From Serpula lacrymans var. lacrymans S7.9 (lineage: Eukaryota > Basidiomycota > Agaricomycetes > Boletales > Serpulaceae): a stretch of DNA of 64,000 bases. The notes below the pieces were generated by a model. The model was not told the DNA's origin, made no database searches, and saw only the letters and a list, made by a program, of their open reading frames with translations. Made by a program: the position numbers and the translations under genes. Position 1 is the first letter of the stretch; the number at the start of each line of letters is the position of its first letter. This document shows positions 42,387 through 46,842 of this stretch, piece after piece. The DNA is taken from positions 597,298 to 661,297 of the forward strand of contig NW_006763305.1 of NCBI RefSeq assembly GCF_000218685.1, in the 5' to 3' direction.

Positions 42387-45110
42387 TGGTTCGTTTGTTT
42401 CTGGACGTGATGCTGGGATGGCATTCCAGCGTGCTATAGTGCGTGCAGACATCGCATTGGTTGACTGTGAATCCGAAATGTTCGTTTCGCACTCTTTTCA
42501 CGCCACATCACATGACCTTACTAATACAATTACTTCGAAGGTAGACAAGATTACCAGAATATGGGGCAAAGTACCTTACATCAAGTCGTTCTAGTACAAC
42601 GTCCCGTACAGTGGACACTTTCCAAATGAATAGCTCGCACATGCCAGATGGCACGCTGCATCGGGATCGGGTGACAAGTGCTGAGTCCACCGTGACAAGT
42701 ACAGCAGTCTTCACTACTGACCAAGTCCGATAGCCTGGAATAGGGGAACCGCAAAAAAATTTCGTAAATTCACGATGCAAAAACATGATTCTTGAACTTC
42801 GTTACGCTATTGGGACTTCGAAACCATCCGAAGAGATGAAAGGGATGGCGAGCACCACGAGGATTAATAAATGAGATACGAATGGCTGTAAATCCAGAAT
42901 GTGCAGCTTTGTCGTGGGCCTCTTCGTTGAAGGAGATTACGCGGTTAACTTCTGAAGACAGTTCCATCTCGAAATCTGAAGTTGAAGTTGTGGTATCGGT
43001 CCTCAGGGCTGAAATAGCACCGTCGAAGCAGGTTGGAAAACAAAGGGTAATTCGGCATTAACAATGGCTCTCAGGAGTTTCTGCGAAGAACAAAATACGA
43101 GCATTCAAAAGCTGCCATTTAGAACTTCTGTACTGCAGTTAGGTCCAATACCGTGAGTGGAGCTTTTCAAGAAATGACGAATGAGTTTAGCCAGCTCATA
43201 TATCAGACCTAAAAGGCCCATCACCAAAATCTATATTATTCAAAATCGCGATAAGATAACTCACCGCCACGTTGAAATTAAATCAGTACACCCAGAGTCG
43301 GGCTACAAGGACTACTCACAAAATACTACTTTCAAAAGCCAAAAGTTGAGATACGGCATCCAGGTAGTCCGGAGTCTCCTAGGGAGATATTAGATATCCT
43401 CTGTAGTAACGCGGTCCTATCGTTTCCGGGTTTCGTGGTGACAGAAATGAAGACCAATATGAGAGCAAAACGAAATTTTCAAATGGCTGTGCAGGATGAT
43501 GAAAACCTCGAGATGGGTCTTGGCCTAGCCTGATGCGCGCAATGATTCAGATCAGAATGGTATTCATGTCACTTTTTTCCGAGCTCACCAAGTCATCTCA
43601 GGTCGTCTCGTATCTATCACTGGCCTGTAGAGGTCTCAGCTCTCGGCTGACGATAGAGAGCCTCGTGCAGCACGAATTTTGCCGAATTTCAGCGTCAAAC
43701 TGACGAAAAAGTCCAGGTCTAGTCCAAAACCAGTCCAAACTGCCCTAACAGGTTCTGATCATCAATGCATCAACTGCGAGAGACAAACTGCCGACAGATT
43801 GCAGCCCAATGCAACCTGGGGGTATCAGTGCCGAGATCATCATCATCATGGATTCTGGTCAAGTCAGAAAAGGAATGGGCGCTGTGAGTAGATAGCGGCT
43901 TGGGTAGTCTGACTTCTTCTACATAATCGGTACTACTACTGGCCTTGAGGCGGACTAGACTTGTCACGGCGCATTGACGAGTTTGACAGTTGGCTTTTGC
44001 AGAGTATACCATGCTACCATTTTTATCGTTTAATAAAATTTCAGCCTGAACGTTGTAACAAATACGCAGCCGAATACGAAGATGCGGTTGCACATGATAC
44101 GTCCCATAGGCATATAAGTAGCACTCCGGTACAGTTACTATCCCATGCCTCACATCCATGGACAAGACTCAAGGTTTAACCTTGCGGCGTGAATTTGGTC
44201 TGTCCATAGTTTCCAGAGTTTCGAATAAGGTGGGAGGATTTTTGGTTAGATCTTTTTTCCGGGCATCTAACGCTAATACTGCGAAGACATAAATACGAAC
44301 GACATGTGAAAGCAGCCAAAAAATATAACAGGGAAAGCATGGGTCCACACAACAGCTTCGAAGTGTAGCGACAGAAGATGAATTGCAGGCTCATCAAGAG
44401 CAGAGGGGCGAACTGACATCCATATGCGTATTATTGATCCGAAAAAAAATGATAGAATAGTTTAATGAAGCTGGACGGAATTCCATGCTTAAAACACGCG
44501 TAAGATATACAATGAATAGAAAGAAAAGACATTCCACAGCATCAAAACATTGAAAGAGAGGTACTGTGCCTATATCTCCCCATAGCAATAGCAACATGAT
44601 GACAATGCAAAACGGAAATCATAAATCGTTGGAGTTTCGGCGTGAAAATGTATTCAGGCGCTTAATTGAAACCTGAAGCGCTCATAACATAATATGGCGG
44701 ATCTAGATACACCGAAGCATGACAATTAGCTCGCATGCGAAAAGAATCTCAAGGGCCTGAATTGATGAACGACACTCACGTTCTTGCTTATGATGGCACT
44801 AGGTAATGCAAGGAACCGCAAGAAAGTGCATTAATACATAGATAGAAGCAGATTTACGAGTTCCGTCAGAAGAAAGGCAAAGGAAATGCGATATCAGGAT
44901 GTGATTTGTTTCCAAAGACGAAAGGGAAGCAAGAGAGTGACGTTATCAGGAATAGCAAATCCGAGCCAGCAGTAGATGTTCCGTTTTTTTTATACCCCAG
45001 ACAGACGGCGCGCAGTAGTACGGGTCGACATAAATTTGCCGCAGATGTGTGCAGGTTGACAATGCATCGCGCAATGATAATTGGAAGATAAAAGACAAAA
45101 AAAAAGAACG
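42387..45110. other. Long stretch without a supported gene
   Basis: 2.7 kb. Minus-strand ORFs at 42508-42786 and 42770-42967 (MELSSEVNRVISFNEEAHDK) could be exons of an unrecognised gene, but I find no splice-consistent model. The rest (43000-45100) has only short ORFs; part must be the 3' UTR of the G-alpha gene. Confidence 0.4.
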
Positions 45111-46842
45111 TTAAATCAGCGCCGCAACTTCAAGATTTGATCGGAGAACGATGCTAGTGAAAGGAGAGAGAGCAGAGCGCGGGGACAATAGTTGAGCGTA
45201 CAGTTGGCAGGGATGTCAAAAAGTTGATAGACTGGGTGGGGGGATGAATGGAAAAAGGTACTCACTCTGTAAACAACGTCAGTCAGTCGAGCATTACAGT
45301 GAGAAATATCGAAGACAGACCTTCAACAGCAGCCATAACAACTCGCAACATTGCCGTATCTGTCGCAGTTGTCACACTTAAGTGCTGTAAGTAAACTCTC
45401 CTGATACACGTAATAGTCTTAATACGCACTGTATATATATTTCACGTTCTTTCGACCGTCCAGCCTTCTGAGCGAGCCTTGAGAAGCGCTTCTTGAAATA
45501 ATCTCGACCAGCTTTCGCATCGCTTGGTTCACCTTCGTAATCCTAGTGGAAATTTTGATTAACGGACGATATTCTGGGTAGATCGAACTTACAGGGAAGA
45601 AGTTCTTGATGTCTGAATGAACTATCTTGCGCTCGAATAGATCGTTCTTGTTCAGGAATAGAATCTAATATCGCGAGTGTAATTTCGTTCCAATCTAGAA
45701 GTAAAATTACGTACAATTGCAGTTTGCTTAAACCATTGCGAATGACATATGGAATCCCATATGGTCATTGCATCTTGCATTTGGTTCTGATAGAACAAAA
45801 CAGAAAATCAGATCGATCACATGACGCCGTTACAGGTCTTGCGGTTCACTTACCGCATCTTTGTCCTCAACCAAACATTGATCATACCCGCTTAGACTAA
45901 CCAAAAAGAGAATACTTGTCACATCTTGGAAACAGTGTATCCATTTTCTCCGCTCGCTCTTTTGACCGCCGACATCTACCATAAGCATTTCATGGTCGTG
46001 AAGCTGGAAGTTTGTCTCCGTTATACCGATCGTGCGTGCTCTACATTGAACAATATCTTGCTCTGTTGGTTGATACGCAGGCTCAAAGAGACGTTCTAGG
46101 TCCGGGTAGAAGTATGACAAGCTATACGTGTGGAGCTTGAGCCACTTCTTTTAACAGTGAAATACCACGTACTTTTCTGGGATAGCTGCCTCATTGCCTC
46201 GTTCATATGCCTTTTGTATGTTGGGGTCGTCCCACAGACACCTTAGGGGCTCGAAGTAGTCTGCTGGGAAAGGTTCCCAGTCACGGATATCAACAGCATT
46301 TCTCACTAGCTCCACATGGGACATTACGTCTTCAGATGGTTCGAGGTCCATATCCTCCATGGCCTCAAAGAGGTAGTTCATGCCAGTAGTCAGATTATTG
46401 AAGACAAGTTGCCGATAAGACTCTATTTCCCCTGGCGAGAACGGCACCCTATGGATAAGCCGCATTTGCTAGCCATGAGAAGTTAAGCGTCAGGTACAAC
46501 CAAGAGAGCGCAACTTCAATATACCTTGAGTATTGTCGACTTTCCTGAGTCACCGGATCCAAGTAATAAAACCTGGAAATAGACATTAGAATGGTATCAT
46601 TATACAGTTAGCTGGTGCTAGTCACACCTTGACTTGAGAAGACATCTTTGCTCTAGCCTGTGAGAGCGAATGTCAGTACCGATCAAATGATGAGCAAATT
46701 AATAGTTGAAGAAGGCATAAAAGAGACTGCGTTAATGTCGGTGAAGGCTTACCTCCCTCAAGTATTTCTCAGCCTCTCGATGTTTCTTCTTATCTTCCTC
46801 CGACACCTCTATCATACCCCCCGAAGACATACATGCTCCCAT
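45111..46842 (-). CDS. Heterotrimeric G-protein alpha subunit
   Basis: GTP-binding signal transducer at the plasma membrane. Model (minus, 11 exons): 46842-46753, 46657-46628, 46572-46525, 46468-46173, 46121-45854, 45786-45715, 45664-45593, 45542-45430, 45376-45321, 45266 (single base), 45153-45111; 362 aa. The N-terminus MGACMSSGG has the Gly for myristoylation and a Cys for palmitoylation. P-loop is LLLGSGDSGKST (Lys 51), where most G-alpha have GAGESGKST. Switch I is RARTIGITET, switch II VDVGGQKSERRKW, then LNKNDLF and TTATDT. Residues after VMAAVE match the canonical C-terminal helix (IVLRSNLEVAALI) only if a 1-nt exon is used; otherwise translation ends AAVEE. The C-terminus lacks the pertussis-toxin Cys. 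Subgroup is not assigned. Confidence 0.93.

Follow-up and report, generated by a model that had tools for sequence, protein, structure and literature searches.

A putative one-nucleotide exon that may lead to two alternative C-terminal endings in a G-protein alpha subunit gene of Serpula lacrymans

How does a G-protein alpha subunit (G-alpha) gene reach its conserved C-terminal end when one of its exons stops within a codon and the two introns that follow lie a single nucleotide apart? This question is raised by a G-alpha gene (minus strand, 46842..44682) in the window, by which we mean the whole 64-kb stretch of Serpula lacrymans DNA that was analysed. Its translation carries GSGDSGKST, DVGGQKSERRKW, NKND, and TATDT, which we take to be the nucleotide-binding and switch motifs, followed by a C-terminal stretch of canonical register, as expected of a member of the G-alpha family. 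The gene is the GPA2-like "G-alpha subunit 4" of Serpula lacrymans. The closest protein among the matches listed was SERLA73DRAFT_188809 from the same species (P0001; 99% identity over 96%), a deposited model that scored 390.5 bits against the PF00503 profile over residues 18-349. When the genome was searched with this profile, one piece of the gene locus scored 206.2 bits, against a cut-off of 48.8, and ranked second in the genome. The close homologue P0033 could be aligned with Gq chains up to residue 357 of 361. Across the whole genome there were 33 PF00503 matches on nine contigs; as exon fragments of perhaps twelve genes, they indicate that Serpula has a large G-alpha family. The full gene model consists of nine exons, the one-nucleotide exon discussed below, and a terminal exon encoding the ending that we call tail A, for a product of 362 amino acids. 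The nine exons are as follows:

46753..46842, minus strand: exon 1, with the ATG (gene model, homologues)
46628..46657, minus strand: exon 2 (gene model)
46525..46572, minus strand: exon 3, with GSGDSGKST (gene model)
46173..46468, minus strand: exon 4 (gene model; within the PF00503 match G000:C16:642881-643765)
45854..46121, minus strand: exon 5, with DVGGQKSERRKWIHCF (gene model)
45715..45786, minus strand: exon 6 (gene model)
45593..45664, minus strand: exon 7, with NKND (gene model)
45430..45542, minus strand: exon 8 (gene model)
45321..45376, minus strand: exon 9, encoding VTTATDTAMLRVVMAAVE plus a final G, with a phase 1 end (gene model; homologues with HVTTATDT or HITTATDT)

The intron upstream of exon 9 has the 3' end TTACAGCACTTAAG (45390-45377, minus strand), and the homologues demand its AAG acceptor at 45377. 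A CAG acceptor lies 8 nt before the AAG acceptor; it was rejected for this exon, as its use breaks the frame and leads to an early stop. Exon 9 is preceded, then, by a tandem CAG/AAG acceptor of which CAG is the poison option.

Downstream of exon 9, the DNA and the model give the following features:

45267..45320, minus strand: first intron of the pair, 54 nt, GTCTGT...TTTACAG (read from DNA)
45266..45266, minus strand: putative one-nucleotide exon, coding-strand A, middle base of the Asp349 codon (DNA, frame, homologues)
45154..45265, minus strand: second intron as used with tail A, 112 nt, GTGAGT...CACTAG (read from DNA)
45111..45153, minus strand: terminal exon A, (GA)C IVLRSNLEVAALI stop (DNA, gene model; tail A is present in 42 of the 70 transcript-like homologues defined below)

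These coordinates agree with the first-pass annotation of this DNA, which placed the exon end GTTGAAG at 45321 and the A at 45266 between GT-AG introns of 54 and 112 nt. Joined, G, A, and C form Asp349 and open tail A, IVLRSNLEVAALI (45153-45111, minus strand: C ATC GTT CTC CGA TCA AAT CTT GAA GTT GCG GCG CTG ATT TAA). In the full 362-residue model the split Asp is indeed residue 349, and tail A has the canonical G-alpha length that had been claimed for it. A single base therefore stands between the AG of one intron and the GT of the next, and this base is needed for the frame of the conserved protein; two longer in-frame products made with a single intron also exist. If the base is skipped, translation runs into the frameshifted VEASFSDQILKLRR and a stop, as had been stated; the accompanying assumption that skipping is the only alternative did not hold, given those two other in-frame joins. 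Retention of the second intron was correctly predicted to end the protein at VEE and a stop (VEE-stop), with the receptor end absent. A zero-length recursive splice site was ruled out because the base is required in the mRNA.

With regard to splice signals, the 54-nt intron carries two CTGAC branch-point-like motifs close to its 3' end. No YTNAY motif was found in the 112-nt intron between 8 and 60 nt from its end; in two ordinary introns of the same gene, the nearest YTNAY is no closer than 37 nt. The sequence YAGAGTRAGT occurred once in the 64-kb window, at the 45266 site (0.75 occurrences expected on both strands), and the looser YAGAGTRNGT likewise occurred once in the window, at the same site (1.95 expected). 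Within the 167-nt gap, three candidates of the form AG-N(1-13)-GT would leave introns of at least 40 nt, and the A at 45266 was the only one in frame. Judged from the Serpula sequence alone, the case for a one-base exon is fair; with the relatives added, the putative exon has a strong case. The junction reads predicted for it in Serpula are GAAGACATCG and GAAGATGCCATC.

The relatives were gathered in three protein searches with Serpula queries. The best 120 of 1385, 193, and 236 hits yielded 178 different homologues. The first query (1385 hits) was 365 amino acids long, with three extra residues near IYI that left the tails unaffected; another (193 hits) favoured the second tail, B, by design, and another (236 hits) ended in VEE. 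We classed 70 of the 178 homologues as transcript-like (jgi, lgn, or ena sources only, contigs of ≤3.2 kb, uninterrupted open reading frame) and the other 108 as genome models or nr records. From their source, their small contigs, and a reading frame that is uninterrupted despite the approximately ten introns of the gene, we infer that the 70 transcript-like proteins derive from assembled cDNA. VED followed by a full tail was present in all 70 of the transcript-like homologues listed, 42 with tail A and 28 with tail B, a ratio that is no measure of expression level because one search was biased toward tail B and the best 120 hits of each were listed. The B tails were 13 residues long in 27 cases and 12 in P0029; sorting by pattern returned 42 as A, 26 as B, and 2 as "other," and both of the latter are B tails that the pattern did not cover. 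In the 1385-hit search alone, 51 of the 120 proteins listed were transcript-like (32 A, 19 B). Within Serpula itself, the paralogue L003 reads VKETILQNALKDSGIL with no intron at the junction site and with equal length, and the paralogue L001 has an intron at a different place (both by eye).

The second ending is also present in the Serpula locus. Two exons at 44798-44682 (minus strand), 312 nt beyond tail A, encode AIISKNIRHIML; their phase matches that of tail A, and they need the same extra base:

44799..45265, minus strand: alternative second intron that would serve tail B, 467 nt, GTGAGT donor as for tail A, acceptor TTACCTAG (coordinates; use inferred from homologues)
44780..44798, minus strand: terminal exon B1, (GA)T AIISKN (DNA, profile)
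44703..44779, minus strand: intron inside tail B, 77 nt, GTGAGT...TATCTAG (read from DNA)
44682..44702, minus strand: terminal exon B2, IRHIML stop (DNA, profile)

With slashes marking the splice junctions, the DNA reads CTAG/T GCC ATC ATA AGC AAG AAC/GTGAGT ... TATCTAG/ATC CGC CAT ATT ATG TTA TGA, and the product would have 361 amino acids, one residue fewer than that with tail A. We scored this ending with a two-exon profile built from the 27 transcript-like B tails of 13 residues, Serpula excluded. It obtained 35.5 of a possible 42.2 bits; the runner-up in the window scored -10.0, and none of 1000 simulated 2-kb sequences reached the score of tail B (maximum, -1.2). One locus thus holds two in-phase endings after a common donor, the arrangement of mutually exclusive terminal exons. 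The tail B junction predicted for Serpula is GAAGA joined to TGCCATCATAAGC. The ending of the Lactarius tabidus model P0153, VEGTIRDIML, suggests that this species shares the intron within tail B.

It could be argued that the one-base exon is real but that Serpula uses tail A only, tail B being a remnant or an ending whose use has been lost. The tail B route requires an intron of 467 nt, whereas the others in the model measure 50 to 112 nt. However, the high profile score of the Serpula tail B, its intact GT-AG sites and stop, and the presence of tail B in three transcript-like proteins (P0006, P0008, and P0025) of the supported clade that holds Serpula all speak against such a loss, and we consider it unlikely.

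What stands at the junction in the genome models and nr records bears on two further readings. Among the 108 listed, none had VED with tail A and two had VED with tail B (Mycena amicta and M. chlorophos; P0145 and P0159); in these two the one-base exon may no longer exist as such, through absorption or loss, or it may have been modelled. The 106 of 108 that lack VED plus a tail amount to an annotation error across this G-alpha class. The deposited Serpula model, P0001, is one example: its ending, VEDPPYYVMSASGFN, is the direct join of exon 9 to B2, out of frame. In seven of the 108 records, tail A was recovered in the frame that results when the base is skipped, with none of 2000 shuffles as good in each case. 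Five of these frameshifted models were among 40 homologue endings scored (Heterobasidion irregulare, Daedalea quercina, Boletus edulis, Psilocybe cubensis, and Coprinopsis cinerea), and two more were picked by eye, both of the two so scored (Athelia psychrophila and Pisolithus orientalis). Seven models with the identical shift point, at the protein level, to the same phase mismatch in other species. A further 14 of 108 had VEG and a tail at the correct length (4 A, 10 B; P0176 by eye), in which the Gly may reflect the intron's first base replacing A in an alignment of RNA reads. Longer inserts preceded tail A in 7 of 108. The remaining class, "other" (40 of 108), began with Gly in 35 of its 40 members, and a leading Gly is what reading on into the GT donor after GAAG is expected to produce.

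One of the two readings dispenses with the one-base exon. A GT donor 4 nt downstream of the exon end (45316, GTCTTC) would define a single intron of 163 nt and an in-frame product, VEGLIVLR... (VEGLIVLRSNLEVAALI), longer by one residue; a GC donor at 45292 is also in frame, with a longer insert. The join from 45316 obeys GT-AG and is in frame with both tails, and endings of this kind (VEGx plus tail A, one residue longer) were found in 5 of the 108 genome or nr records, in other species. A donor of the form GTNNGT contains a second GT, so gene finders could land on it. Yet this type of join was absent from all 70 transcript-like homologues listed, and it lengthens a stretch whose length L003 keeps. 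We regard this single-intron reading as very improbable.

The other reading takes VEE-stop as the main product, with the first intron removed, the remainder serving as 3'-untranslated region, and a receptor-uncoupled G-alpha as the result. This ending was found in 34 of the 108 genome or nr records (30 plus 4 from the "no junction" class, by eye). It is what splicing of the first intron followed by read-through into A-GTRA produces; it can also be obtained from a contiguous GAAGA with no first intron, in which case gene finders should easily find the tail. Among the 34 is an nr-only record from Flammulina (P0083), and a truncated product may be real because this record could come from cDNA. 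Against VEE-stop as the main product, none of the 70 transcript-like homologues listed had it, even with the query that itself ended in VEE (best 120 of 236 hits), and both downstream tails are strongly conserved. It is highly unlikely that most of the protein ends there. The one-nucleotide exon put forward in the first-pass annotation thus stands as the best reading of the junction, on the strength of Asp and a full tail in every transcript-like homologue listed, the frameshift in seven other species, and the uninterrupted L003; that account was incomplete, however, in that it missed tail B, which lies beyond the coordinates it gave.

To place the two tails relative to the rest of the protein, we used a tree of 91 bodies without tails. 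These comprised 67 transcript-like proteins (all 70 except P0133, P0141, and P0142, which are partial) and 24 of 93 genome or nr records picked by eye, namely P0001 and 23 others whose tail could be read; three records in which tail A follows an insert (P0146, P0147, and P0157) were kept out. Tail type required 24 changes over 90 labelled rows, and at least 12 of these changes were forced by starred branches. The labels were slightly more clustered than chance: shuffling gave a mean of 29.6 changes, and a value as low as 24 was reached in 14 (A) and 11 (B) of 500 shuffles. There is no old split into an A gene and a B gene, given the 24 changes and the at least 12 that are forced. The closest pair, P0004, a tail A genome model from Suillus fuscotomentosus, and P0008, a transcript-like protein ending in tail B, were equal at 345 of 348 body residues (by eye), although the two may differ in organism. 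That A and B are two paralogous genes in most species, a reading compatible with the one we favour for Serpula and exemplified by Armillaria solidipes P0117 (A-type) and P0129 (B-type), which are 90% identical and lie on contigs of unequal size, is extremely improbable: it fails at the Serpula locus, which holds both tails, it fails as an old split in a tree with no A clade set against a B clade, and it sits poorly with the near identity of P0004 and P0008. The Armillaria pair may instead be a later division of labour in which the isoforms were split between duplicated genes.

Taken together, the one-base exon is probably, and with good confidence, a common hub for mutually exclusive terminal exons, whose alternation would swap the receptor-contact end of the protein. 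In the mechanism that we propose, the nine constitutive exons, ending in phase 1 (GAA G), would be followed by the 54-nt intron, the A, and its GTGAGT donor. This donor would be joined either to the near exon A, giving C plus IVLRSNLEVAALI and 362 amino acids, or, with exon A skipped, to the far B1-B2, giving T plus AIISKN/IRHIML and 361 amino acids. Splicing in Serpula would presumably be the same as in its relatives, and the flanking introns would be removed in sequence, since a single base leaves too little room for its two splice sites to be occupied simultaneously. Neither tail is the obvious default, since the near route lacks a YTNAY motif 8 to 60 nt from its acceptor and the far route uses the 467-nt intron. 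The last 12 to 13 residues, which we take to be the receptor-contact end of the alpha-5 helix, would differ between the products, and the swap would be expected to change the choice of receptors or effectors. By analogy, a different receptor or effector preference of tails A and B is likely, because the end of the helix is swapped and because peptides of the last 11 residues of the mammalian Goa and Gob are isoform-selective. AlphaFold models show the tail as a helix, though at a confidence too low to be of use, in both P0033 (tail A; mean pLDDT, 63.0; residues 332-361 below 50) and P0074 (tail B; mean pLDDT, 73.2; residues 355-360 below 50).

A bolder version of this mechanism, which we offer tentatively and which has somewhat less than an even chance of being right, makes the one-base exon an obligatory stepping stone. 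Its donor would become active only after the first intron is gone, so that the choice is delayed until both endings have been transcribed; the cell would set the shares of the tails, with VEE-stop as an off form, and one gene would provide two receptor specificities. Such a device would be conserved through the orders Agaricales, Boletales, Russulales, and Polyporales, and it would have stayed hidden because a one-base exon is hardly ever placed by gene finders. If the two-tail reading is right, the one-base exon would be both broadly conserved and linked to a functional decision. It would offer a natural system for asking how the spliceosome deals with exons that are too small to be defined, as well as a fungal equivalent of the animal G-alpha isoforms with different receptor selectivity. 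Work on mushroom signalling that relied on such models may rest on wrong protein ends, because nearly all of the genome and nr records listed lack VED plus a tail and many are truncated or frameshifted at the receptor end.

One-base exons as such are already known, from APC11, VPS55, and CYP621A, and that of Serpula is not the first fungal case; the first-pass annotation's remark that such an exon had been reported in a plant gene has been overtaken by VPS55 and by the Fusarium CYP621A. In the titles and abstract openings of the open-access papers listed, we found no G-protein gene with a one-base exon, no such exon in any nuclear gene from Basidiomycota, and no description of fungal G-alpha subunits with alternative endings. 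What we rate as new is a one-base exon that would serve two alternative terminal exons at the receptor end of a signalling protein.

The single-nucleotide exon of plant APC11 is an A between two GT-AG introns that is essential for the frame, was overlooked by annotation, and is widespread in land plants (PMC4674806, PMC8831610). Consecutive or recursive splicing has been proposed for it, and the argument from adjacent splice sites has also been made (PMC4674806). In Arabidopsis the exon is described as constitutive, and a moss has a second isoform as well (PMC4674806, PMC8831610). That of plant VPS55 is present or lost, the loss in Selaginella having come about through intron retention (PMC8831610). 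The Serpula gene shares with APC11 and VPS55 the one base between two GT-AG introns, its necessity for the frame, and its neglect by annotation; unlike them, it is a fungal signalling gene whose base would lead to two alternative endings. The closest fungal precedent is CYP621A of Fusarium, whose one-nucleotide exon is a G backed by reads from two species (Nelson and Syed 2026; PMC12940212). Both that gene and ours are fungal nuclear genes in which the base is the middle one of a conserved codon and most database models are wrong (PMC12940212). However, CYP621A is an ascomycete P450 with a G and one described outcome, whereas the Serpula gene is a G-alpha of Basidiomycota with an A and two terminal outcomes.

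The junction also resembles stwintrons in that adjacent introns need consecutive removal. In a stwintron, the internal intron splits a splice element of the outer one; in contrast, both Serpula introns have complete GT...AG ends with one exonic base kept between them, and we therefore rejected this classification. A parallel for the two endings exists in mammals, in which the G-alpha-o isoforms Goa and Gob arise by alternative splicing. That arrangement is not known to involve a micro-exon. Peptides of the last 11 residues are reported to block their own isoform only, so that the end carries the selectivity (PMC9293909). Serpula, like mammals, would have a pair of G-alpha isoforms with different C-terminal ends (PMC9293909). 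With no common origin suggested, the fungal swap is distinct from the mammalian one in that it takes in the last 12 to 13 residues and changes the length of the protein by one.
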